64,000 bases of DNA from Nocardioides luteus (GTDB lineage: Bacteria > Actinomycetota > Actinomycetes > Propionibacteriales > Nocardioidaceae). Location of the stretch: the NCBI RefSeq assembly GCF_015752315.1, contig NZ_JADOVJ010000001.1, positions 4,828,501 to 4,892,500 on the forward strand. The letters run 5' to 3'. Position 1 is the first letter of the stretch; the number at the start of each line of letters is the position of its first letter. The notes beneath the pieces are model-generated. The model saw nothing but the letters and a program-made list of their open reading frames with translations. It did no database searches and had not been told where the DNA came from. Below are positions 1 through 32,520 of this stretch, piece after piece. The position numbers and the translations under genes were made by a program.

Positions 1-592
<592 letters not shown>

Positions 593-686
593 ATCGCCTC
601 CCATTGTCCCCGAGGGCGGTGAGGCGGCCTGCATCGCGGCGGCCATCCAGTGGCACACCGAGCGGACGAAGAGCCCCTGACCTGCC

Positions 687-692
687 TAGACT
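687..692 (+). promoter_or_regulatory. -10 box of probable leaderless promoter
   Basis: TAGACT is followed by seven bases and then the ATG of the tandem TetR gene at 700. No ribosome-binding site is visible, so transcription probably starts at or next to the ATG. Confidence 0.45.
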
Positions 693-699
693 GCGTGCA

Positions 700-1962
700 A
701 TGGTCGAGAAGACGCTCCGCGAGCACACCCACGGCTCGCGTCAGATGATCCTCGAAGCAGCGCTCCGCCTGGCGGCCGAGCGCGGCTATGTCGGCACGAC
801 GATGGCGCTGGTCCGGCGCGCGACCGGCCTCCCGCCGTCCTCCCTCTACTGGCACTTCCCCAACAAGGATCAGCTTCTCGCCGACGCGCTCGAGCACGGC
901 TACACCCGCTGGCACCGGGCCGTGCCCCGATGGGAGGAGACGCCCAGGAAGGGCGACCTGCGCGAAGGGCTGCTGGCCAACCTGCGGCGTACGACCTCGG
1001 ACACCCGCGACGCCAACGCCGACTGGTGGCGGATGGGCCTGATGCTCGCCCTCGAGTCCGGACCGACGGTCGGCGACGGCCCCCGTCAGCGCTTCCTCCA
1101 GATCCGCACGCAGACGCTGGCCGGCTTCGAGCTGTGGTGGTCCGGGGCGGTCGACCTTCCGCCCGCCCACATCGAGACCCTCGCGCGGCTGACCCTCGCC
1201 GCCCACGACGGCCTCTTCATCCACGTCCAGACCGATGCGTACGCCGCGCTCGACCCGCTCCGGCAGCGGCTCGCCGACGGACTGGCCGAGGTCGCGGACC
1301 ACCTTCGGAAGCAGGACCCCGCGGCCGTCCCGGAGGACGTGGACCTGCCGCCGGCGACCTTCGAGGGCAGGAGCAGCAGCCGCGAGAAGCTCGTCGCGGC
1401 CGCGCTGGAGGTCGCTGCGGAGAGCGGCTACGAGGGCGCCTCGATCAGCCGGATCTGCGCCGCGGCGAAGCTGCCGGCCTCCTCGGTCTACTGGCACTTC
1501 GCGAACAAGGACGACCTGTTCTCGGCCGCGGTGGACGACTCCTACCGCGCCTGGAGCAGCGCCCAGTCCTCGTGGCTGCCGCCGAGCGCCGACTGCGACT
1601 GGTCGACCGAGCTCCCCCGGATGCTGAAGCCGCTGGTGGCCAGCCTCCGCCGGCTGCCGCCGTTCCTGCGGATCGGCCTGATGCTGGTGCTTCCCAAACG
1701 CCCCGAGCCGCTGCCCGGTCGCGACCGTTTCCTCGCCGTACGCCTCCAGTCGCGCGCCGACTTCGCCGGCTGGTTCCGCGGAGCCCTCGGCGACGACGCG
1801 GCGGAGCATGCCGAGGAGATGGCCTCGCTAGTGCTCGTGATCGCAGACGGACTCCTCTTCGCCGAGGCGCTCGACAGCGCCGACATGCCACCGGCCACGA
1901 CCTCGGACCTGCTGGCGCGACTGGTCACGGCAACGCCGATTCATGCACAGATGAGCCACTGA
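700..1962 (+). CDS. Tandem TetR-type regulator (two TetR units in one chain)
   Basis: A 420-residue regulator with two complete TetR-like units. Unit one has an N-terminal HTH (residues about 13-60, ending SSLYWHFPNKDQLL); unit two repeats it at about 225-275, ending SSVYWHFANKDDLF. Each HTH is followed by its own helical ligand/dimerisation region, so length is about twice a normal TetR protein. The frame is also open upstream to 604, but the ATG at 700 sits seven bases after TAGACT and starts just before the first HTH, so I chose it. It is divergent from the ABC-F gene and may control it. The effector is unknown. Such a chain could act as an intramolecular pseudo-dimer. Confidence 0.85.
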   Translation: MVEKTLREHTHGSRQMILEAALRLAAERGYVGTTMALVRRATGLPPSSLYWHFPNKDQLLADALEHGYTRWHRAVPRWEETPRKGDLREGLLANLRRTTSDTRDANADWWRMGLMLALESGPTVGDGPRQRFLQIRTQTLAGFELWWSGAVDLPPAHIETLARLTLAAHDGLFIHVQTDAYAALDPLRQRLADGLAEVADHLRKQDPAAVPEDVDLPPATFEGRSSSREKLVAAALEVAAESGYEGASISRICAAAKLPASSVYWHFANKDDLFSAAVDDSYRAWSSAQSSWLPPSADCDWSTELPRMLKPLVASLRRLPPFLRIGLMLVLPKRPEPLPGRDRFLAVRLQSRADFAGWFRGALGDDAAEHAEEMASLVLVIADGLLFAEALDSADMPPATTSDLLARLVTATPIHAQMSH

Positions 1963-2090
1963 GCTACTACCGTAGACCCACAGAGGGTTTACGAGGCTAA
2001 CGGTCGAAAACGCATCGAAATGGGTGCTGTGTCATCTATTTCCGCAGGTCAGGAATGAGATTTATCCAACATTTCCGCCACAACCTCCGG

Positions 2091-2117
2091 AACGATCGTT
2101 ACAGTGACTGCTGTCAC
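2091..2117. promoter_or_regulatory. Candidate operator pair upstream of the IclR gene
   Basis: Two adjoining palindromes lie 67-93 bases before the IclR start: AACGATCGTT (2091-2100) and GTGAC-TGCT-GTCAC (2104-2117). Their position fits autoregulation by the IclR protein, which is an inference. The rest of 1963-2183 shows nothing else I can name. Confidence 0.35.
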
Positions 2118-2183
2118 AGAGAGTCGGGGCCACCAGATCCCCCCATCGCGGTGTGTCTTCGACTCAGTAAAGGAGATCCCCCC

Positions 2184-2996
2184 ATGAGCGTCTCTGCTAT
2201 CCCCACCCTGGCTAGTCAGCACGACCATGAAGGCGCCCCGAGGACGACCTCCTCGGCGACCCCGTCTGCGACGAAGGCCCTCCAGATCCTGGAGGCATTT
2301 CTCGGAGCCGGCCCGAAGCTCGGTGTCAGCGAGATCGCACGCACCGCGGGCCTACCCAAGTCGACCGCCTTCCGCCTCCTGCGTCACCTCGAGCAGAGCG
2401 GATACGTGGAGCGCACCGGCCGGCACTACGTGCTCGGACGTCGCCTCTTCGAGCTCGGCAACGCGGTGCAGATCTGCCGCCCGCAGGGCATCCGCGAGAC
2501 GGCGATGCCGCATCTGGCCGAGCTCTACGTGGCCACCGGCAAGACCGTCCACCTCGCCATCCTCGAGGGCACCGACATCGTCATCCTGGAGAAGATCACC
2601 GGACGCGGTGGCATCCAGCCTGATACGTACGTCGGCGGGCGAGCGCCCGCAGCCTGCTCCGCCCTCGGCAAGGCGATCCTCTCCTTCAGCGACCGCAACC
2701 ACATCGCGGCCGTGCTGGAGTCGGGCCTGGTGAGGCGCACCCGCCACTCGCACGGCGACCCGGCGAAGTTCCTCGCCGAGCTCCGCCGCGCCAACAGCGA
2801 GCGCATCGCCTTCGACCGCGAGGAGGCCCAGCTCGGCATCGTCTGCGCCGCGGTCCCGATCATGATCGAAGGCCGTGCGATCGCTGCCGTCTCCGTCTCC
2901 GGCAGCGCCGCCGGGTTCAACGCCGCCAGCATCACCCGACACCTGCGCCGCGCCGCCGCCGCGATCTCCGACGAGGTCGTCTCCAGCGCCGCCTGA
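2184..2996 (+). CDS. IclR-family transcriptional regulator
   Basis: A 270-residue DNA-binding regulator. A winged HTH occupies about residues 30-90 (ALQILEAFL, then VSEIARTAGLPKSTAFRLLRHLEQSGYV). The C-terminal two thirds is the IclR effector domain, with the conserved run GRAPAACSALGKAIL and a late QLGIVCAAVPI segment. The ATG at 2184 has AAAGGAG nine bases upstream. An in-frame ATG at 2055 would add 43 residues of poor composition and is rejected. Neighbours are unrelated housekeeping genes, so the regulated pathway cannot be named. IclR proteins often control aromatic or carboxylate catabolism. Confidence 0.9.
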   Translation: MSVSAIPTLASQHDHEGAPRTTSSATPSATKALQILEAFLGAGPKLGVSEIARTAGLPKSTAFRLLRHLEQSGYVERTGRHYVLGRRLFELGNAVQICRPQGIRETAMPHLAELYVATGKTVHLAILEGTDIVILEKITGRGGIQPDTYVGGRAPAACSALGKAILSFSDRNHIAAVLESGLVRRTRHSHGDPAKFLAELRRANSERIAFDREEAQLGIVCAAVPIMIEGRAIAAVSVSGSAAGFNAASITRHLRRAAAAISDEVVSSAA

Positions 2997-3000
2997 CCTC

Positions 3001-3115
3001 GGCCGAGGCGTCACGTACGTCGGCCGAGGCGTCGGCTAGGTCGGTCGAGGCGTCATGCGCTGACGTCTCGACCTGCCTACCTGACGTCTCGGCCGACGCG
3101 GCTGACGTCTCGGCA
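3001..3115. repeat. 21-bp-periodic giant palindrome between convergent genes
   Basis: Three copies of a 13-mer (GGCCGAGGCGTCA and close variants) start at 3001, 3022 and 3043. Three reverse-complement copies (TGACGTCTCGGCC type) start at 3061, 3082 and 3103. All six units are symmetric about position 3058, with exact 21-bp spacing. The inner pair forms a 13-bp hairpin with a 5-nt loop. The array fills the space between the IclR stop and the ispE stop, so it probably works as a bidirectional terminator, but its regularity goes beyond a usual terminator. Confidence 0.8.
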
Positions 3116-3123
3116 GGGTCGGG

Positions 3124-4026
3124 TCAATAGGTGACCACGTGGGCGCCGGCGACCGGGCCCGGGGCGGTCCAGACGCGGTCGTAGTCCTTGGCCTGCATCG
3201 CTCCGGCGACCTCGCGGGCATGGGCGGCGTCGCGGCAGAGCAACAGGATGGTCGGGCCGGAACCGGAGAGCTGGACGGCCAGTGCGCCGGCCTCCTCGCC
3301 GTCGGCGAAGGTATGGGCGAGGTCGGGACGCAGCGCGAGCGCCGGGGCCTGCAGGTCGTTGGTGAGCGCCTCGGCGAGGAGGTCGGGGTCGCCCTTCTCC
3401 AGCGCCATGAGCAGGCGCTCGGGCACCTGCGGGTCGCCGATCTCGGTACCGGCGTGCTCGTCGAACGCGCGGTAGACCGACGGCGTCGAGAGCCCCTGCT
3501 CGTTGCCGACCGCGACCCACCACCAGGCGCCGTTGTCGGTGACCGGCTCGACGATCTCGCCGCGGCCACCGCCGACGGCGGTCGCGCCGATGAGCGCGAA
3601 TGGTACGTCGGAGCCCAGCTGCCCGGCCAGAGCCAGCAGATCCTCGTCGGAGGTCTCCAGCGACCACAGGCGGTCGAGGGCGACGAGCGTCGCGGCGGCG
3701 TCGGCCGAACCGCCGGCGAGGCCGCCGGCGACCGGGATGCCCTTGTGGATCTCGATCCTCGCCGCCTTGTCGACGCCATGGTGGGCGGTGAGAGCCTTGC
3801 CGGCCCGCACGACGATGTTGTCGTCGCCGGTCGGGACCTCCCCGAGCGCGATGTGGTCCTCAGCGGTGACCGCGACCTGCCACTCGTCGGCCTCGCTCAC
3901 GGTGACGTCGTCATAGAGCCCGATCGCGTGGTAGACGGTCGCCAGCGGGTGGTACCCGTCCTCGCGGACAGGGCCCACGCCGAGGTGCAGGTTGAACTTC
4001 GCGGCCGCACGGACGGTGATCGTCAT
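3124..4026 (-). CDS. ispE: 4-diphosphocytidyl-2-C-methyl-D-erythritol kinase
   Basis: GHMP kinase that phosphorylates CDP-methylerythritol in the non-mevalonate isoprenoid pathway, in the cytoplasm. The 300 residues match the usual size. N-terminal [14 protein letters not shown] carries the catalytic lysine and asparagine typical of IspE, and the ATP-binding GHMP motif is [15 protein letters not shown] near residue 95. A glycine-rich [11 protein letters not shown] lies near the C-terminus. Its ATG overlaps the rsmA stop by four bases (ATGA), so the two are translationally coupled. The order rpfB-rsmA-ispE is conserved across Actinobacteria. Confidence 0.96.
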
Positions 4027-4892
4027 GAGGGAACCTTCTGGAGCGATTCGGTGATGCGTACGAAGTCCGCGATGGTCAGCGACTCCCCACGCGCCAGCGG
4101 GTCGATGCCGGCCGCGACGAGCGCCTTCTCGGCCGCGTCGGCGGAGCCGGCCAGCGGCTTGAGTACGCCGCGCAGCGCCTTGCGACGCTGCGCGAACGCG
4201 GCGTCGACGACCGCGAAGACCTCTTCGCGGGAGACCGCCGTCGACGGCGGCTCGCGGTGGCTCCAGTAGACGAGACCGGAGTCGACGTTGGGGGCCGGCC
4301 AGAAGACGTTGCGGCCGATCGCTCCGGCGCGGCGTACGTCGGCGTACCAGGCAGCCTTGACGGACGGGACGCCGTAGACCTTGGAGCCGGGCTTGGCGGC
4401 CAGCCGGTCGGCGACCTCGGCCTGCACCATGACCAGCCCGTGGCGCAACGACGGCAGCAGGGACATCAGGTGCAGCAGGACCGGGACCGAGACGTTGTAG
4501 GGCAGGTTGGCGACCAAGGCCGTGGGCGGCGGGCCGGGGACGGAGTCGACGCGGAGGGCGTCGGCGCGGATCAGGCTGAAGGCGTCGGCCTGGTCAGGGG
4601 CGTACTCCTCGATGGTCCGCGGCAGCCGCTCGGCCAGGACCTCGTCGATCTCGATCGCGGTGACCTTCGCGCCCGTCTCGAGGATGGCGAGGGTGAGCGA
4701 CCCCAGGCCGGGGCCGACCTCCACGACGACATCGGAGGCGTCGACGCCGGACTCGCGCACGATCCGGCGCACGGTGTTGGCGTCGATGACGAAGTTCTGA
4801 CCGCGCTGCTTGGTCGGGCGCAGATCGAGCTCGGATGCGAGCGACCGCACCTCCGCCGGGCCCAACAGGCGCGGCGGGGTGCGGTCGGTCAT
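4023..4892 (-). CDS. rsmA: 16S rRNA adenine(1518/1519)-N6 dimethyltransferase
   Basis: RsmA/KsgA makes the four methyl groups on the two adjacent adenines of the 3' end of 16S rRNA, using SAM. The 289 residues carry [10 protein letters not shown] at about 28, SAM motif [12 protein letters not shown] at about 57, and the catalytic [12 protein letters not shown] motif at about 130. It overlaps ispE by four bases. The start at 4892 lies six bases after TAGTCT on the same strand, so the gene may have its own leaderless promoter besides read-through from rpfB. Confidence 0.96.
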
Positions 4893-4898
4893 GGGTAC

Positions 4899-4904
4899 AG
4901 ACTA
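4899..4904 (-). promoter_or_regulatory. -10 box of probable leaderless promoter of rsmA
   Basis: On the minus strand TAGTCT is followed by six bases and then the rsmA ATG. No Shine-Dalgarno sequence is visible. Confidence 0.35.
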
Positions 4905-4926
4905 TGGCCCGAAGGCCGAAACAGCC

Positions 4927-6117
4927 CTACTGCGGCAGACCGAGCTGCTGCGAGCAGTGCGGCCAGGAGCCGTAGCCACCGTTGGCGTCGCGGACCTTCG
5001 TCGCGATCGCGATCTGGGCCTCACGGCTGTTCTCGTGCGGGTAGCCCGAGCCGCCGTAGGCCTGCCAGGTCTGCAGGTTGAACTGCAGACCGCCGTAGTA
5101 GCCGTTGCCGGTGTTGGTCGCCCAGTTGCCACCGGACTCGCACTGCGCGAGCTGGTCCCAGACGGTGCTGCCACCGGCGAAGTTGGCCGCCGGGGCCTCC
5201 TTCTCCTTGGTGCCGACCTTGACGATGCGCGGCTCGGCCTCCTCGATCACGTTCTGCTCGAGGACCTTCTTGGAGACGGCCCGGCCGTTCTTGTAGAAGA
5301 CGCGGTAGGTCACCGAACGGAGACCGTCGGAGCCTTCCTCGACGACCTCGGTCTCGCCCTCGTACATCGACGAGTCCTCGCGCTCCTCGACCGGCGCCTC
5401 GACCTTCTCGCGGGCGACCTTCTGGATCTTGGCGGAGAAGTCGGTGAAGACGATCTTCTGACCGGTCTTCAGGGCCTTGTCGGAGGCCGGGGAGACCTTG
5501 TCCCGGCGTTCGAGCTCGACACCGAGGTCCTCGAGCGCGTCGCCGACGGTCAGCGCGGTCACGCTGACCTTCGTGGTCTTCTTCCCGGCCAGCGCGACCG
5601 TGACGGTCTTCGGCGTGATGACGTCGAGCGACATCCCGTCGCGGCCGATGTAGGCACCGCGGCTGGTCGAGAGCTCGGCCCGGTCGTAGTCACGGCCGAG
5701 CTCGGCGAGAGCCCCGCCCACGGTCGTGGCGGTCACCCAGTGGTCCTGGGACTTGCCGTCGACCTCGAGGCTCAGCTGCCGGGCATAGCGGACGCTGATG
5801 GCGCTGCCGTCCTCGACCTCGGTGTCGACCGACGGGGCGACGGCGTCACGGTCGCCGATCTCGATGCCTTGCGCCTCGAGGACCTCTCCGACGGTGTCGG
5901 CGTGGACGCTGACGTCCTTGGCCTTGCCGTCGACCGAGAGGATGACGTCGGTCTGGGAGGACTTGACCCCGTATGCGGTGCCGCCTGCGGCGACGACTGC
6001 GGCGGCGAGTCCGCCGACCAACAGGGCCTTACGGCGACGGGTGGATGCGATGTTACGAACCCATGAGGTGGTGCTGCTGACGGGCACAATGCTCCGATGT
6101 TCGTGCTCCCCGGGCAC
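4927..6117 (-). CDS. rpfB: Resuscitation-promoting factor RpfB
   Basis: Cell-wall-associated muralytic transglycosylase that promotes regrowth of dormant actinobacteria. Domain order in the 396 residues: cytoplasmic stub, signal anchor (about 30-50, ALLVGGLAAAVVAAGG), three DUF348 repeats (about 55-230), a G5 domain (about 235-315) and a C-terminal Rpf domain with WDQLAQCESGGNW, whose Glu is catalytic, then YYGGLQF and WPHCSQQ. This order is that of RpfB rather than of the short Rpfs. The GTG at 6117 is the longest start. A GTG at 6087 with GGAG close upstream is an alternative. Upstream on the same strand tatD would be expected directly, but a protease gene intervenes. Confidence 0.95.
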   Translation of the reverse strand: MPGEHEHRSIVPVSSTTSWVRNIASTRRRKALLVGGLAAAVVAAGGTAYGVKSSQTDVILSVDGKAKDVSVHADTVGEVLEAQGIEIGDRDAVAPSVDTEVEDGSAISVRYARQLSLEVDGKSQDHWVTATTVGGALAELGRDYDRAELSTSRGAYIGRDGMSLDVITPKTVTVALAGKKTTKVSVTALTVGDALEDLGVELERRDKVSPASDKALKTGQKIVFTDFSAKIQKVAREKVEAPVEEREDSSMYEGETEVVEEGSDGLRSVTYRVFYKNGRAVSKKVLEQNVIEEAEPRIVKVGTKEKEAPAANFAGGSTVWDQLAQCESGGNWATNTGNGYYGGLQFNLQTWQAYGGSGYPHENSREAQIAIATKVRDANGGYGSWPHCSQQLGLPQ

Positions 6118-6567
6118 GGGCGCACGGTGTTGCGAGATCTGGTGATCTACGCGCTGAGGCCCACCCCCAACACCGTCCGGATCTATCCCGACCCCGGCTT
6201 TCTCGCCGGACAGCGGAACAAATGCGGGCGGTCAAATGCAAGTCCTGTGCCCGCTCCGCAGGCAATATCAAGCATGCAATCTTGGCATCAAATGAGTGCC
6301 AGAGCGCCCTGTCAATACCTGTCGTAGCGAATGACAGCCGTGCGATTCATCACGTCGAAATCGCAGGTCAAGCGGGCTGATCACGGTCGCTGTCGTAATC
6401 CCGCCACGAAATATCGGGCCCACTGGCCAATAGGCGACAAATCCTTTACAGGTAACTCCGTTGCTTGGTGTTGTACTCCGAAGCCATCTCTGTCGTGATG
6501 GCCCGTCGTGCCGGTCAGTTCTCGGGGAAGGCAGATGTGCGCGATGTCACCAGACTCCGGAGGAACG
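6118..6567. other. 450-bp divergent intergenic region, rpfB / M6 protease
   Basis: No coding region can be supported here, and it is less GC-rich than its flanks. It holds the rpfB promoter (separate entry) and a roughly 160-nt untranslated leader before rpfB. I looked in that leader for the ydaO-type cyclic di-AMP riboswitch often found before actinobacterial rpf genes and did not recognise its conserved blocks. On the plus strand TTTACA near 6444 could be a -35 element for the protease, but no good -10 follows at normal spacing. Confidence 0.5.
6287..6315 (-). promoter_or_regulatory. Sigma70-type promoter of rpfB
   Basis: On the minus strand, TTGACA (6310-6315) is a perfect -35 hexamer. 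After a 17-base spacer comes TTTGAT (6287-6292) as -10. The predicted start near 6280 leaves a leader of about 160 nt before rpfB. Confidence 0.6.
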
Positions 6568-25099: not shown

Positions 25100-27160
25100 T
25101 CAGGCCTCGACGTACCGCCGCCGCCCGCGGAGCGGGCGCACGACGAACATCCCGGCCAGCAGCGCGAGCCCGGCGAGGAGGGCGACGACGGCGAGGATCC
25201 CGCTCAGGACGACCTTCGTCTGGATGCCCCGGTGCTCCTCGCCGACATCGTCGGACACGATCAGCGTCATCGCCACGATGGTGTCCTTGAGGAGCTGGAT
25301 GAAGCGGGTCATGTCCTCGGCCCAGACCTGCGCGGCCGGCCTGCCCACGCCGTGGGTCTCCAGGTCGGGGACGACACCCTCGAGCGACCCGTCGTTGATG
25401 ACCTGGACGACGGCGTTCTGCGACACCACGCCCCGGGAGCCGTCCGCGAAGGTGCCGTCGGAGATCTTGTCGAGTGCCTTCTGGGTCGCCTTCGGGGCAT
25501 CGGCGTAGAAGGAGCGCGAGTTGAGCTGCCAGGACGTACGCGCCTCGCTCATCGCCTCCATCGACTCCTCGTCGATCCGCCCGGTCATCAGCGCGGGCAC
25601 CATGATCGCGCGCTCGATCCCCAGCGACTCGGCCGCCGACCTGACGTACTTGAGGTTGGTGACCTGCTTGTAGATCTTCTCGTTGCGGATGTTGGGCATC
25701 TCGGTCGCGAAGTCGAGCAGCTCGTAGGCGGTGTCGGTGTAGGCGGCGATCGCCGCGTCCGTGCTCGCCTTGTCGCCCTCCTCGAGGTCCTTGCGATAGG
25801 CGTCGATGCCCTTGAGGACGGTGTAGGTGCGCTCGACCCGCTCCCGCAGGCTCGGGGTGTCGGCGAGGTCGATCTTGGTGATGTCGGCGTGCCAGGCCTC
25901 GATCGAGTCGTCGGTCACCTGGCGGTAGGCCTGCCGGACCGCGTCCGGGACCTGGTCGGAGCCCAGCGCGTCCCGCTCGAAGATGAGGTCCATCCCGAGC
26001 TCGTAGCTCTCCGGGAGAGCACCCGCGATCGTCATCGCCCGGCTGGAGACGGCCCGCTCCTCGAACGCGTCGGCGAAGGTCAGCCCGCCCAGGACGAGGG
26101 CGATCACGACCGGGACCAGGAGCGCGCCGAGCACCCGGGTGCGCAGAAACCACGGCTTCGGGGCGGCATGGGACCGAGGCGTACGTTGCCCCGACTCCAC
26201 CACACCGGCGATCGCCGTCACCGGCGAGGCCAGCGACGGCGAGGAGGAGGACGAGGACGCCTTGGGGGCCATGATCGCCGCGGGCTTGGGCGGGGCGGAC
26301 AGCTCCCGGCTGCCCGCCGCGATCGCGGGCACGACGCCGGGTCTACGCGCGAAGGCGACGACCTCGCCGGCGGTGGGCCGGCGGGAGGGGTCCTTGTCCA
26401 TCATCGACGCCACGAACTCGTCGACGTGGGCCGGCACGGTGACGACGTCGTTGACGTGCGGAACCGGAGCGGTCACGTGCTGGTAGATCATCGAGACGGG
26501 CTCTGAGCCGGCGTAGGGTGCCCGCCCGGTGAGCAGCTCGAACGCGACGCAGCCGAGCGCGTAGATGTCGCTCGGCGGGCCGACCACGGTGTCGGCGGCC
26601 TGCTCCGGAGAGATGTAGGGCAGGCTGCCCATCACGTGGCGGGTCGAGGTGAGCCGCTCGGCCTGATGGTTGGCCAGCTGGGCGATGCCGAAGTCGAGCA
26701 CCCGGATCCGGCCGTCGCCGTCGTAGACGAGGTTGGACGGCTTGATGTCGCGGTGGATGATCCCGGAGGCGTGGACCGCGCCGAGGGTGCGCGCCACCTG
26801 GACGATCACCTCGCCGGTCTCCTCCATGGTGAACCGCCCCTGCTTCTCGAGCCGGTCGGCGAGCGTCGGGCCGGGAAGCAGCTCCATGACGAGGTAGACG
26901 ATGCTGCCGTACTCGGTCTGCTCGACCCCGACGTCGTGCACCTGCACCGTCCCGGGGTGGCTCGCCGCCGTCGTCGAGAGCGCCTCACGCCGGAACCGCT
27001 CGGTCACCTTCGGGTCGGCCGAGGTCTCCACGACCTTCACGGCGACCCAGCGTTCGAGCCTGATGTCGGCGGCCTGCCAGACCTCGCCCATCCCGCCGCG
27101 GCCAAGCAGTCGGTGCAGGCGGTAGCGGCCTGCGATCGGGGGGCGCGTTCGCATGCGCAT
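25100..27160 (-). CDS. Receptor Ser/Thr protein kinase with NIT-like sensor
   Basis: Transmembrane kinase of 686 residues. Residues 10-270 are a full Hanks-type kinase: P-loop GRGGMGEV (20-27), VAVK with Lys42, catalytic HRDIKPSN (136-143), DFG (156-158) and SPEQ. A Ser/Pro/Ala-rich linker leads to one membrane segment (about 350-370), an all-helical extracellular domain of about 260 residues resembling NIT (nitrate/nitrite-sensing) domains (LKYVRSAAESLGIERAIM), then a second membrane segment near the C-terminus and a short basic tail. PASTA repeats, usual in this class, are absent. It lies 76 bases downstream of a paralogous pseudokinase, and the two probably work as a pair. Confidence 0.92.
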   Translation of the reverse strand: MRMRTRPPIAGRYRLHRLLGRGGMGEVWQAADIRLERWVAVKVVETSADPKVTERFRREALSTTAASHPGTVQVHDVGVEQTEYGSIVYLVMELLPGPTLADRLEKQGRFTMEETGEVIVQVARTLGAVHASGIIHRDIKPSNLVYDGDGRIRVLDFGIAQLANHQAERLTSTRHVMGSLPYISPEQAADTVVGPPSDIYALGCVAFELLTGRAPYAGSEPVSMIYQHVTAPVPHVNDVVTVPAHVDEFVASMMDKDPSRRPTAGEVVAFARRPGVVPAIAAGSRELSAPPKPAAIMAPKASSSSSSPSLASPVTAIAGVVESGQRTPRSHAAPKPWFLRTRVLGALLVPVVIALVLGGLTFADAFEERAVSSRAMTIAGALPESYELGMDLIFERDALGSDQVPDAVRQAYRQVTDDSIEAWHADITKIDLADTPSLRERVERTYTVLKGIDAYRKDLEEGDKASTDAAIAAYTDTAYELLDFATEMPNIRNEKIYKQVTNLKYVRSAAESLGIERAIMVPALMTGRIDEESMEAMSEARTSWQLNSRSFYADAPKATQKALDKISDGTFADGSRGVVSQNAVVQVINDGSLEGVVPDLETHGVGRPAAQVWAEDMTRFIQLLKDTIVAMTLIVSDDVGEEHRGIQTKVVLSGILAVVALLAGLALLAGMFVVRPLRGRRRYVEA

Positions 27161-27236
27161 ATGGTGTCGGACTCACACCCCGTGCGTCTCGTGTACGCAC
27201 CGATGAATTCCGCCGATCTTCGCTGAAGTCGCCGGT

Positions 27237-28844
27237 TTACGCATCAACCGTTCGCTTTCGTGCTCGCAGCAGAGCGATGCCGAGCCCGGCGAACAGCGCC
27301 AGCAGGATGCCGCTGAAGATCCCCCAGCCGATCGTCTGGTTCTTCGCCTCCCGATGCTCGCGGTCGACGTCCTCGGCGAGCTGTCGGGCGGAGTCCACGA
27401 CCACCTTCTTGAGGTCCTGGACGTAGCTGGCCGCATCGGCCAGCCAGATCTGGTCGACGGGCCTGCCGTCGGCGCCGTCCCCGAGCTGCCGGATCACGTC
27501 CTCGACGTCACGAGCGTTGAGCACCCGGATGACGGCACGCTGGGACGAGACCGCGTAGGACCCGAACTCGAACGACTGACCCGAGATCCTGTCGAGCGCC
27601 TGCCGCATCGCCGGATCAGCTCGGGCGTGGATCGACGCCGAGTGGGTCGCCCAGGAGTCCTGTGCCGCGCTGAGATCGGCGATGCCGTGGTCGCTGATCC
27701 GCTCGTTCCGCAGCGCGTTCGCCATGATCCTCCGCTCGAGTCCGAGCACCTCCGAGACGGACCCGATCAGCTCGAGGTTGCGCGCCTGCCTGGCCAGCGA
27801 GTCGTCCTGGAACGAGGGCAGCTCGGCGGCGAGGTCGAAGAGCCCGTTGACCGCGTTGGTGTACATCTCGACGGCCGCCAGCTTCCCGGACCGGTCGCCC
27901 GCCCGGGCGGCCGTGCGGATATCCGAGAGCCGCTCGATGGCGGCCGCCGTCCTCTCCGTACGCCGCCGCAGCCCCGGGTCTTCGGCGGTGTCCAGGTCCT
28001 TGATCTCGGTGGCCCAGGCCTCGATGGACCTGTCGGTGACCTGCAGGAAGTCCTCGGTCAGCGCCGCGTCGGTCCGCAGCGCGTCGCGCTCGATCGAGAG
28101 GTCGAAGGCGAGCTGGAAGCTGGTCGGCAAGATGTTGGCCAGCGGCCTCGCACTCCCGACGGTCGACGTCGTGTCGCCAGCCCGGAGGGTGCCCCAGCCG
28201 CCGAAGACCAGCCCGGGCAGGACCAGAAGCATCAGCACACCCAGAAGCGTGGGCGAGAGGCGTGGGCCGGTGATGCCGGCCGGGCGCACGATCCGCTTCG
28301 GTGGGGCAGCGACCCCGCTCTCGAGCACCGCCGCGACCTCCTCGGCCCGAGGGCGCTTGGTCGGGTCCTCGGCGAGCATCGCGGTCGTGATGCCGTCCAG
28401 GTGGCCGGGCACGGTCACCAGCGTGCCGACCCGCTCGGGCTCGATGCCGGCGTACGGCGGACGGCCGGCGAGCAGCTCGAAGAACACCGCGCCGAGCGAG
28501 TAGACGTCGCTGGCGGGAGTGATCCGTCGGCGGTCGATCTGTTCGGGCGACATGTAGGGCAGGGCCTCACCGCCGCGCGGCGGGACCGCACCGATCAGGG
28601 CGACCCGGCCGCCAGGTGCGTACCCGATGGTGGCCGGCCGGACGTCGCCGTGCACCTGCCCGACGGCGTGACCCGAGTCGAGGATGCGCGCCACCTGCGC
28701 GACGACGGCGGAGGCCTCATCAGGAGAGAAGCGGTTCGCCTGGGCAAGCCGGTCGGCAAGGCTCTGACCGTTCAGAGCGGGTCCGCCCTGTCCGGTCAGA
28801 TGGTTCAAATGCTGGCGACCGGCGCGTGGGGGACGGATACGCAT
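27237..28844 (-). CDS. Pseudokinase receptor with NIT-like sensor
   Basis: A 535-residue paralogue of the downstream kinase in which the catalytic domain has decayed in an ordered way. The N-lobe is cut by about 70 residues: [15 protein letters not shown] jumps straight to [10 protein letters not shown], so the Lys and helix-C Glu are gone. HRDIKPSN has become HGDVRPAT and the DFG stretch reads LIGAV, while SPEQ and [14 protein letters not shown] remain. A membrane segment (about 205-225), a NIT-like extracellular region ([20 protein letters not shown]) and a second C-terminal membrane segment follow. The frame is intact over the whole length, so this is a kept pseudokinase, not a pseudogene. 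Confidence 0.88.
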
Positions 28845-28883: not shown

Positions 28884-29927
28884 TCAGCCGAGAGTTTTCC
28901 TGGGCGTGGCCAAGAGTTCCACTTGCCCGGCGCGTCGCCCCAGGTACGCCAGGCAGGCGACGGCGAGCGCCACGCCCCACACCGGCCAGAGCATCTCGGG
29001 GGCCCATGCAGCCCAGTCCGAGGTGGCGCCGGGGACGGCCCAGAGGTCGCCGGCGACCACCATCCGCCAGAAGGACAGCCCGGCGGAGGTGACCGCGGCG
29101 GCGACCAGGATCCCGGGCACCAGCGCCATCGCCACCGGCACCGGACGGCCGCCGAACCGGGGCACCCAGGCCCAGAAGACCTCGCCCCAGCGGGCGACCA
29201 GACCCCAGGTCAGCACCGCCCCGACGACCGCGAAGAGCGCTAGCCCGAGGCCGGCCCATCTCCCCGAGCCGAGCTCGTCGAGCATCTCCTGCCTGATCCC
29301 GAGCGGCACGCCCACCGCCCAGGCGATCCGGGTGACGGCGTAGAGAAGGGGTACGACGACCGCGACCGTGACGGCCGGGCGACCCCAGCGCGCCCAGCGA
29401 CCCCAGTCGATCCGGCCCTCCGGTGCGGCCCGTTCGAGCAGACCGATGCCGGTGACCACGCTCGCGATCCCGCCGACCGCGTGCGCGAGCGCCGTGCCCG
29501 AGTCGAGGAAGATCGCCCAGTTCAGGTGGCCGGCGGCCGGACCGACGCCGACCAGGGCGAGCAGCGTCTGCGGCAGATAGCCCAGGAAGGACAGCGCGCG
29601 GACGTCGGAGACGACCAGCGCCACCACGAGCCCCACCCCGACCAGCAGCCAGCCGGCCCGCCGCTGCGTAGGACGCTCCCGGCCGACGGCTCCCGCGACC
29701 CCGGCGGCCAGCACCAGGAGCGCGGCGACGGTGACCACCCAGGACATCTGGGTGCCGCTGAGCCCGCCGAGCGGCGAGGCGGGCTCGGGCGCCCACGGGT
29801 CGGACGTCCGGCCCACGAGCGCGAGCCCGGACAGCGCGCCGTAGGCGAGCGCCCAGGCACCGGCCACCCAGGGCGCCGCGCGGCGAACGGACGATCGGGG
29901 CTGCGTACGTTGCATCGTGGTCGTCAT
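28884..29927 (-). CDS. Polytopic membrane protein, function unknown
   Basis: A 347-residue protein with about eight predicted membrane segments and no recognised family motif. Conserved-looking loop features are LGYLPQTLLALVG, an inward RAAPEGRIDWGRWARWG and a C-terminal WPVWGVALAVACLAYLGRR. I start it at ATG 29927, which overlaps the stop of the DUF2867 gene (ATGA); the frame is open to 29951, but that would read through a 27-bp repeat. The coupled pair may act together. Confidence 0.75.
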   Translation of the reverse strand: MTTTMQRTQPRSSVRRAAPWVAGAWALAYGALSGLALVGRTSDPWAPEPASPLGGLSGTQMSWVVTVAALLVLAAGVAGAVGRERPTQRRAGWLLVGVGLVVALVVSDVRALSFLGYLPQTLLALVGVGPAAGHLNWAIFLDSGTALAHAVGGIASVVTGIGLLERAAPEGRIDWGRWARWGRPAVTVAVVVPLLYAVTRIAWAVGVPLGIRQEMLDELGSGRWAGLGLALFAVVGAVLTWGLVARWGEVFWAWVPRFGGRPVPVAMALVPGILVAAAVTSAGLSFWRMVVAGDLWAVPGATSDWAAWAPEMLWPVWGVALAVACLAYLGRRAGQVELLATPRKTLG

Positions 29928-29949
29928 CTCGACAAGCTCGATACATCGC
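29923..29949 (+). repeat. 27-bp dispersed repeat, copy A
   Basis: This 27-bp sequence (core CTCGACAAGCTCGATACA) is identical to 31709-31735 in inverted orientation. Copy A supplies the last residues and stop codon of the DUF2867 gene and the overlapping start of the membrane protein gene. CTCGACAAGCTCGA is itself close to palindromic. Confidence 0.85.
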
Positions 29950-30580
29950 ATCGGGCCACCCCCTGAGCGTTCTCCCAGCGACGGCCGACCGTGCGCAGCA
30001 GCGCTGGGTAGACGACGAGGTAGCGGAACGGCTTGATGAGGGCCATGTAGGCCTCCCCGAACAGCCCGTTCGGCCGCACCAGCACGCTCAGCTGCGCGCT
30101 GTAGCCGTCGGGCGCGGTCTCGTCCTCGACCCAGCCGAGGTGCAGGACACCGTGCATCGTGCGGTTGGCGATCTCCGCGGCGTACTCCCGGTCCGTCAGG
30201 TAGAGCGCGTGGAACGGGCTCGCGTCGCGCTCGGGTCCGGGATGGTCCCGGAGGTCGGCCGGGAGCCGGTCGACCAGCGAGGCGACGCGGCGCCCGAGGC
30301 CGTGCTCGTCCTGCTCGGTGCCGAGCATCCGGCCGAGCGCCCAGCGGACCGCGAAGAGGAAGCGGTACGCCGCCGGGAAGTCACGCTCCTCGCCGCTCAT
30401 CATCGACTCGACGAAGCGGGGAAAGTCGTCGGCGCCGCCGTGGACGGGCAGGGCCCAGACGTCCTCGAGCTCGAAGTCCTCGGTGATCTGGTGGATCCGC
30501 CATGACTGCCCGGAGTAGGCGCCGGTCGGAAGCGGTCTGGTTCTGATCGGGGCGGGCCCGACGGGTGCGTGTGTGGTCAT
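29924..30580 (-). CDS. DUF2867 domain protein
   Basis: A 218-residue soluble protein that looks like the SRPBCC-related DUF2867 family: early SWRIHQITEDFELEDVWALPV, central FAVRWALGRMLG, then LYLTDREYAAEIANRTMHGVLHLGWV and a late GEAYMALIKPFRYLVVYPALL. ATG 30580 with GGAGAC upstream was chosen over the longer frame. The final residues ARCDVSSLSR are encoded by a dispersed repeat, so the original C-terminus may have differed. Role unknown; a small-ligand-binding fold is likely for the family. Confidence 0.82.
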   Translation of the reverse strand: MTTHAPVGPAPIRTRPLPTGAYSGQSWRIHQITEDFELEDVWALPVHGGADDFPRFVESMMSGEERDFPAAYRFLFAVRWALGRMLGTEQDEHGLGRRVASLVDRLPADLRDHPGPERDASPFHALYLTDREYAAEIANRTMHGVLHLGWVEDETAPDGYSAQLSVLVRPNGLFGEAYMALIKPFRYLVVYPALLRTVGRRWENAQGVARCDVSSLSR

Positions 30581-30635
30581 GTCTCCACACTCGTGCGCGC
30601 GCGGCCGCGGTTCGTCGCCCTCAGGTCGCGGGCCT

Positions 30636-30653
30636 CTCATCCTCCAGGATGAG
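30636..30653 (-). terminator. Hairpin after the response regulator gene
   Basis: CTCATCC and GGATGAG with a 4-nt loop, three bases after the response-regulator stop on the minus strand. No T-run. Confidence 0.5.
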
Positions 30654-30655
30654 GC

Positions 30656-31333
30656 TCAGCTCCGGGGTCCGACCAACCCGGTCTCGTACGCCAGCACGAC
30701 CGCCTGCACCCGGTCGCGCAGGCCGAGCTTGGCGAGCACATGGCCGACATGCGTCTTCACCGTCGCCTCGGAGAGATGGACGCGACGGGCGATCTCGGCG
30801 TTGCTGTCGCCGGTGGCGAGCTCGAGCAGCATGTCGAGCTCGCGGGGCGTGAGCGTCGCCCGGATGTCGGCGGCCCGCCCGTTGTCCGGAGCCGGAGCGG
30901 TCGCCACGTGCTCCAGCAGCCGGCGCGTCGTCGACGGTGCGACCACCGCGTGACCTGCGTGAACGGTCCGGATCGCCTCGACGATCTCCTCGGCCCGGGC
31001 GTCCTTGAGCAGGAACCCGCTGGCACCGGCGCGGATCGACGGGAACGCGTAGTCGTCGAGGTCGAACGTGGTCAGCGCGATCACGCGCGTCGCCGGCTGC
31101 TCGCCGGTGATCGCTGCCGTGGCCTGGATCCCGTCGAGGCGCGGCATCCGCAGGTCCATGAGGACGACGTCGACCCGCTTCGTACGCACCAGCGCGAGCG
31201 CCTCGTGCCCGTCGGCCGCCTCACCGGCGAGCTCGAGGTCGGGCTGGCTCTCCACCATCATCCGGAGGGCCGAGCGCATCAGCTCCTGGTCGTCCACGAT
31301 CGCGACCCGAATAGGGGTCTCTGGTTCCGTCAC
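30656..31333 (-). CDS. NarL/LuxR-type response regulator
   Basis: A 225-residue two-component regulator. The receiver domain (about 8-125) has acidic DD in AIVDDQELM, phospho-acceptor Asp in VVLMDLRMPRLDG and the conserved Thr and Lys in ALTTFD and FLLKDA. The C-terminal LuxR HTH has LTPRELDMLLELATG and NAEIARRVHLSEATVKTHV. GTG 31333 overlaps the stop of the kinase gene (GTGA), so the pair is translationally coupled. The regulated genes are unknown. Confidence 0.95.
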   Translation of the reverse strand: MTEPETPIRVAIVDDQELMRSALRMMVESQPDLELAGEAADGHEALALVRTKRVDVVLMDLRMPRLDGIQATAAITGEQPATRVIALTTFDLDDYAFPSIRAGASGFLLKDARAEEIVEAIRTVHAGHAVVAPSTTRRLLEHVATAPAPDNGRAADIRATLTPRELDMLLELATGDSNAEIARRVHLSEATVKTHVGHVLAKLGLRDRVQAVVLAYETGLVGPRS

Positions 31334-32520
31334 AGCGGCATCATGGCGCGGACCCGCCACCCCTCGCCGCTCGGCCCGGCCTCGAGCGTGCCGCCCACCG
31401 CGGCCACCCGCTCGCGCATCCCGCTCAGCCCTCGGCCGGGCGGACTCTGGATGCCCGCGCCGTCGTCGCTGACCTCGACCCGCAGCTGGCGCCCGGTGCG
31501 GGTCACCGACACGGTCGCGACGGCTCCGGGACCCGCATGGCGGGAGACGTTGGTGAGCGCCTCCTGTACGACGCGATAGGCGGTCAGACCGACGGCAGGA
31601 GCGACCGGCCCCGGGTCGTCCGCCTCGAGGTGGACCCTCAGACCGGCCTCGCGCATCCGGCCGACGAGGTCATCGACGTCGGCCAGCCCCGGCTGCGGCT
31701 CTGTCGAGGCGATGTATCGAGCTTGTCGAGATGACTCGCCACCGAGCACACCGAGCAGCCCGCGCATCTCCGCGAGGGCCTCCCGACCGGTGGTCGCGAT
31801 GGTGTCGAGGATCCCGGAGGCCCGCTCCGGCTGCTGTCCGACGACCATCCGGCCGGCCTCGGCGTGGCTCACCACGACCGCCAGCGAGTGCGCCACCACG
31901 TCGTGCATCTCCCGCGCGATGCGCTGGCGCTCCTCGGCGGCCGCACGGTCGGCGAGCTGGTCGATCCAGGCGGCCCGGGTCGCCCGGAACCGGCCGAGCG
32001 CCCAAGCCGCCACCGTCGCACCAAGCGTCGCGGTGGCCACCATCAGCCACCACGTCCACCCCTGCAGCCCGGTGCCCTCGAACCCCGACAGACGTACGAC
32101 GGTCACCAGGCAGCCGACCAACCCGATGCCGAGCGCGATCCCTGGCCACGGCCTCCGGTCGCGCGCGCTCACCGCGTAGAGCAGCACGAAGAAGCACAGG
32201 CTGCTGGGCAGGAGCACCGGCCCGTAGTCGCTTCCCGCCGCCTCGGCCGTGGGCCCGCTCAGGTCCGGGGCCGCGACCATCACGAGCTCGGCCACCGACC
32301 CGGCCGCGAAGGAGACCAGCGGCCAGCGACGGGCGGTGGCCACGGCGGTGTGGAGAACCACCAGCGCGGCGACGAGCGCGATCTCCCAGCCTCTGGCGAT
32401 CTCACCCTCGAGCACCGACGTCCAGCCGACCGGCAGCAGCACCAGTGCGAGCGCCCCCGCCAATGCGACCTGCCCCAGGTCACCGAGCCAACGGGGACCT
32501 GGGGCAGGGACTGAAGTCAT
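31330..32520 (-). CDS. NarL/DesK-type sensor histidine kinase
   Basis: Membrane sensor kinase of 396 residues: about five N-terminal segments in the first 180 residues, a HisKA_3 dimerisation domain with phospho-acceptor His in RIAREMHDVVAHSL, and a HATPase domain with VVQEALTNVSRHAG, DDGAGIQ and GRGLSGMRERV. Between MRGLLGVLGG and PQPGLADVDDL lies a run, ESSRQARYIAST, encoded by a 27-bp dispersed repeat that is also found 1.8 kb away. It inserted in frame in the linker before the ATPase domain. Confidence 0.93.
   Translation of the reverse strand: MTSVPAPGPRWLGDLGQVALAGALALVLLPVGWTSVLEGEIARGWEIALVAALVVLHTAVATARRWPLVSFAAGSVAELVMVAAPDLSGPTAEAAGSDYGPVLLPSSLCFFVLLYAVSARDRRPWPGIALGIGLVGCLVTVVRLSGFEGTGLQGWTWWLMVATATLGATVAAWALGRFRATRAAWIDQLADRAAAEERQRIAREMHDVVAHSLAVVVSHAEAGRMVVGQQPERASGILDTIATTGREALAEMRGLLGVLGGESSRQARYIASTEPQPGLADVDDLVGRMREAGLRVHLEADDPGPVAPAVGLTAYRVVQEALTNVSRHAGPGAVATVSVTRTGRQLRVEVSDDGAGIQSPPGRGLSGMRERVAAVGGTLEAGPSGEGWRVRAMMPL
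31709..31735 (-). repeat. 27-bp dispersed repeat, copy B, inside the histidine kinase gene
   Basis: Identical over 27 bp to 29923-29949 but inverted. Here it is read in frame and gives SSRQARYIA within the kinase linker. Confidence 0.85.

Follow-up and report, generated by a model that had tools for sequence, protein, structure and literature searches.

A NIT-receptor Ser/Thr kinase and an adjacent paralogous pseudokinase without most of the N-lobe in Nocardioides luteus

The stretch of Nocardioides luteus DNA analysed here, hereafter called the window, comprises 64,000 nucleotides (nt; contig NZ_JADOVJ010000001.1, positions 4,828,501 to 4,892,500) and includes two adjacent genes on the minus strand, hereafter called P and K. 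The upstream gene P (27237..28844) encodes a predicted NIT-receptor pseudokinase of 535 amino acids without N-lobe, identified from its open reading frame, Pfam, BLASTP and residue comparison, and the downstream gene K (25100..27160) encodes a NIT-receptor Ser/Thr kinase of 686 amino acids, identified from its open reading frame, Pfam, a structure-database search and its residues. An earlier interpretation of the letters, hereafter called the sequence-only reading, had described neighbouring same-strand genes of a common layout, and both open reading frames were recovered at the positions it gave, on the minus strand, each with two hydrophobic peaks. K consists of a kinase domain (residues 13-268, 26357..27124, Pfam) with the catalytic loop HRDIKPSN (26732..26755, from residues), a first membrane segment (hydrophobic peak 343-361, 26078..26134), a NIT sensor (residues 366-648, 25217..26065, Pfam and model; Pfam match 405-626) and a second membrane segment (hydrophobic peak 650-668, 25157..25213). 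P consists of a remnant of the kinase N-terminus (residues 1-21, 28782..28844, aligning to K 3-23 in BLASTP), a reduced C-lobe (residues 24-175, 28320..28775, by alignment) which includes the former catalytic loop HGDVRPAT (28629..28652, residue comparison), a membrane segment (hydrophobic peak 196-214, 28203..28259), a NIT sensor (residues 223-503, 27336..28178, Pfam and model) and a second membrane segment (hydrophobic peak 508-526, 27267..27323). All of these features are on the minus strand. P and K are paralogues of the same topology with NIT sensors.

In BLASTP, P and K share 34 % identity across 596 columns, in addition to the separate piece P 1-21. Residue 24 of P pairs with residue 95 of K, so that approximately 71 residues (K 24-94) are gone from P, close to the 70 or so that the sequence-only reading had estimated, and with them the segment of the ATP-binding Lys. 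The catalytic Asp position is retained in all ten P genes (H65-G-D67), in which Arg69 replaces Lys, Thr72 replaces Asn and the DFG position reads I/V-G/A/S-A, in agreement with the loss of catalytic loop and DFG claimed earlier. The C-lobe lacks part of the activation segment and a further 12 residues facing K 222-233, a region which, following the general kinase map, we take to be helix G. The Pkinase profile of Pfam scored 45.9 bits for P and 167.3 bits for K (cut-off 31.7). Judged by its residues, P is a pseudokinase. The possibility that an N-lobe is hidden upstream of P or behind a frameshift was rejected, nothing resembling one being found by eye in 300 nt and three frames; the P frame closes 13 codons before the start codon (548 vs 535 amino acids).

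The catalytic set of K is invariant in all nine orthologues (Lys42, Glu59 of helix C, H136-R-D, Lys140, Asn143 and DFG at 156-158), which bears out the intact Lys42, HRDIKPSN and DFG noted before. The nearest solved structures to the K kinase domain are PknA/PknB-type Hanks receptor kinases (E 4e-58), from which K differs in scoring below the cut-off of the PASTA-kinase profile NF033483 (K 294 and P 63.2 bits, cut-off 450) and in the helical sensor that its two membrane segments enclose. K is a Hanks kinase bearing an unusual sensor.

The NIT profile PF08376 matched both proteins above its cut-off of 24.9 bits (K 76.3, P 58.2), so the NIT-like sensors suspected earlier were recovered on both, and the extracellular domains are related by this profile, a structural match being obtained for the P sensor only. 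The predicted model of the P sensor matches the fold of NasR (4akk). In the fold searches with K, the best 50 matches listed per search were all kinases, found via its kinase domain; a sequence search of solved structures with the K sensor gave no matches, and one with the NIT alignment A3 gave seven, mostly designed helical proteins, NasR not being among them. The sensors were modelled well for both proteins (block means 72-93 for P). An E-R pair is invariant in both NIT half-sites (26 of 26 sequences) and was equated with E175-R176 of NasR (accessible part of PMC7496416) by motif and position rather than by structural alignment. Nitrate sites contain two arginines in G-x-x-R motifs, one Gly being replaced by Gln in NasR (accessible part of PMC8199190). 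The second half-site reads G-x-E-R in both P and K, whereas the first reads S-x-E-R in P and I-x-E-R in K, and consequently the Gly or Gln three residues ahead of the arginine is present in the second half-site and missing from the first, unlike in NasR. An anion is a plausible ligand for both sensors; with the two arginines retained and no Gly or Gln ahead of the first, nitrate is a candidate ligand and not an established one. Where K has Asn582, Arg occurs in P, in a third kinase, K3 (described below), and in a NIT histidine kinase encoded by the same genome. The suggestion that K has lost a third ligand arginine was dropped, since that position varies in other NIT domains too. P and K resemble NasR and the NIT histidine kinases in the PF08376 score, the fit of the P model to NasR and the two conserved arginines, but their output domain is a Ser/Thr kinase or pseudokinase instead of ANTAR or a HAMP-histidine kinase.

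Scans of related genomes were made with one sensor each (E 1e-8 in the genus, 1e-12 in the order and class), and homologue searches scored only the 8000 candidates sharing most words, so that distant NIT Ser/Thr kinases may have been missed. With the K sensor, 13 of 215 Nocardioides genomes matched; a K orthologue is present in nine of these, which are also the ones with P. In the other four the NIT domains sit in different proteins. A scan of 196 genomes with P as query found eight. In all nine genomes P immediately precedes K in the same orientation, separated from it by 76 nt, which extends the adjacency seen in the window to its relatives; P was intact beside K in each of them, no K-keeping relative having a broken or absent P, and the Nocardioides scans gave no P genome lacking K. 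All nine P-K genomes also contain K3, a lone, unlinked NIT Ser/Thr kinase of 686-698 amino acids with the tested catalytic residues intact. The duplication order of P, K and K3 appears as a trifurcation in the tree. In the genome of the window, K3 (690 amino acids; G000:C1, approximately 829.4-831.5 kb; L072 5416-7488) also has well conserved upstream DNA.

Outside this clade, the scans brought up no NIT sensor on a Ser/Thr kinase. Across the order, the K sensor found NIT in two of 293 genomes, and across the class the K3 sensor did so in two of 394, one in each case being the window's own genome. None of the six NIT proteins in the non-clade genomes found (five from the genus, one from the class) carries a Ser/Thr kinase domain; by Pfam, five are NIT-HAMP-histidine kinases and the sixth (596 amino acids) has NIT only. 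Homologues numbered 34 for the K sensor and 27 for the K3 sensor, the named genus always being Nocardioides, with one labelled just Actinomycetota. Among the best 120 of 134 homologues of P, 16 were P-like and the others matched the kinase part only. The PF08376 scan in rings was positive in none of 14 control genomes. No NIT Ser/Thr kinase or N-lobe-less receptor pseudokinase turned up in the titles and abstract openings of the papers listed by literature searches. The genome of the window also encodes a NIT-HAMP-histidine kinase of 1159 amino acids, after which come roadblock, DUF742 and ATP/GTP-binding frames (L081 5118-9958; G000:C1, approximately 693-698 kb), a cluster which we regard as conservon-like. 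It is plausible that the NIT sensor of P and K was swapped in from a histidine kinase, with this cluster as a possible donor. The same genome contains a 358-amino-acid protein with NIT as its sole Pfam domain (L082 4742-5818), and in some relatives short NIT frames like it are located close to the NIT histidine kinase.

The frame of P, described earlier as intact, has no stop or break in any of ten copies. In three disjoint species pairs, omega was 0.237 (95 % interval 0.164-0.346) for the P C-lobe (residues 30-175), 0.247 for the P sensor, 0.104 for the K C-lobe and 0.039 for the K N-lobe; over nine single pairs, which share species, the P C-lobe value was 0.19-0.54. P is under purifying selection, its dead lobe included, although more loosely than K. 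The N-lobe loss is common to all ten copies, and as the P of G001, which is 64 % identical, carries the same deletion, the deletion predates the split of the sampled species. The loss of catalytic residues and N-lobe and the faster evolution relative to K could indicate a functionless duplicate in decay, but given the omega interval, the unbroken frames and the shared deletion this is very improbable for P. The constraint on the C-lobe remnant, equal to that on the P sensor, is also what would be expected if P acted as scaffold or as positive partner, recruiting substrates by its C-lobe or presenting ligand to K by its sensor, and thereby increased the output of K. Scaffolding is known for bacterial pseudokinases such as EssB/YukC, but the docking surface that kinases have around helix G (both points from the accessible part of PMC12599244) seems to be deleted in P, and the P lobe diverges fast (mean distance 0.248, vs 0.052 for the K kinase domain); on balance this explanation is unlikely, though it deserves consideration. 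Operon order and membrane topology of P and K would likewise agree with P serving K as phosphorylation target or as anchor for its localisation and not as regulator, an improbable role which leaves the retention of a kinase remnant unexplained.

Our preferred interpretation, held tentatively and somewhat short of probable, is that P is a kinase-dead receptor subunit working with K. Pairing would be via the NIT domains and membrane helices of the two proteins, and the balance between K-K and K-P pairs would be set by a small ligand, for which nitrate, nitrite or a similar anion is the first candidate. Hanks-type receptor kinases activate one another by contacts between their kinase domains that a K-P pair could not make, since P has no N-lobe, a shortened activation segment and missing residues at the presumed helix G. 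P would occupy the place of a second K and restrain K until the ligand alters the pairing. Of the steps in this proposal, an inhibitory effect and the choice of ligand are the least secure. HER2/HER3 is similar in combining live and dead paralogues with matching sensors, but HER3 retains both lobes and activates its partner, and P is without the lobe required for that. The back-to-back contact of PknB is located on the N-lobe and, P having no N-lobe, PknB-like back-to-back allosteric activation of K would be closed to P. This mode, proposed as allosteric, is described for PknB together with an asymmetric face-to-face dimer for trans-autophosphorylation (accessible part of PMC6333020), and the dimer-interface residues of ActPs3 lie in the N-lobe (accessible part of PMC12599244). 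The wider proposal of an obligate heterodimeric Ser/Thr receptor, in which NIT was put on Hanks kinases in one Nocardioides lineage and a duplicate was cut to a C-lobe-only, ligand-sensing subunit gating the live kinase from its partner's place, is on the doubtful side.

Several observations weigh against the preferred interpretation. In pairwise distances, P is no more tightly coupled to K than to the unlinked K3: the P sensor correlates with the K sensor at r 0.97 and with the K3 sensor at 0.95 (0.66 and 0.73 without G001), and the distance correlation of the P C-lobe is 0.50 with the K kinase and 0.78 with the K3 kinase. The kinase parts of both proteins were modelled poorly, the P lobe (block means 31-49) worse than the K kinase domain (23-81) with similarly shallow alignments, so that the P lobe may be unable to fold by itself. 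The adjacency of P and K is equally expected from tandem duplication. The sequence-only reading stands in part: shared ancestry, NIT on both proteins, adjacency and constraint are supported, while P as allosteric partner and a heterodimer of the sensors stay hypothetical, the PknB-like route being closed to P and the distances giving no P-K-specific coupling. The same lack of coupling would suit P as an independent receptor signalling via its membrane helices or another protein with no action on K, adjacency being due to tandem duplication and shared control. In G110, a second intact P (67 % identical to the P of the window) and a 34-residue P fragment lie ahead of an inserted oxidoreductase operon and the P-K pair behind it, so that both are parted from P-K. 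Independence is nevertheless rather unlikely, as a P adjoins K in each of the nine genomes and no K-less P genome was found. The extra P copies of G110 are at L071 3864-5644 and L068 3086-6887; a solitary P in G110 as a K-less case was rejected, since the contig that bears it and the P-K contig correspond to adjoining sections (31-3302 and 3309-6290) of a single inserted operon of L066.

P shares lost catalytic motifs and a membrane link with published bacterial Ser/Thr pseudokinases (ActPs1-3, GLW, CP1, DYD and DLHK), a shortened activation loop with ActPs3, and the loss of helix G with approximately 60 % of ActPs1 (accessible part of PMC12599244). Compared by the descriptions given there, P is set apart from these seven families by its NIT sensor and the absence of most of the N-lobe, a reduction not described for any of them in the accessible text; P has no N-lobe beyond the first 21 residues and thus lacks the family-specific N-lobe dimer-interface residues of ActPs3. 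The terms NIT, nitrate and Nocardioides are absent from the main text of that review (PMC12599244). P and K are a compact natural pair of a live and a dead receptor; their sensors are related, and selection maintains a remnant without N-lobe, so that the effect of a pseudokinase on its kinase is directly testable here. NIT sensing would here reach Ser/Thr phosphorylation, beyond histidine kinases and antiterminators.

The spacer between P and K (27161..27236, minus strand), equal in length in the nine genomes, contains an inverted repeat, GTGCGT-N7-ACGCAC with flanks (27178..27201, minus strand), the arms of which are invariant in all nine; it may be an operator or an RNA hairpin, going by its sequence. 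A second conserved block lies 46-75 nt before P (28890..28919, minus strand), a possible control region that is conserved also in genomes with a different gene upstream of P. Both non-coding blocks are conserved and, within the allowed mismatches, occur just once in the genome. P-K thus appears to be an independently controlled unit and not the tail of the upstream two-component genes, a set which is not the neighbour of P in every relative. On the same strand upstream of P (28884-32520) are genes for a histidine kinase, a LuxR-type regulator, a DUF2867 protein and a 355-amino-acid protein without Pfam match.
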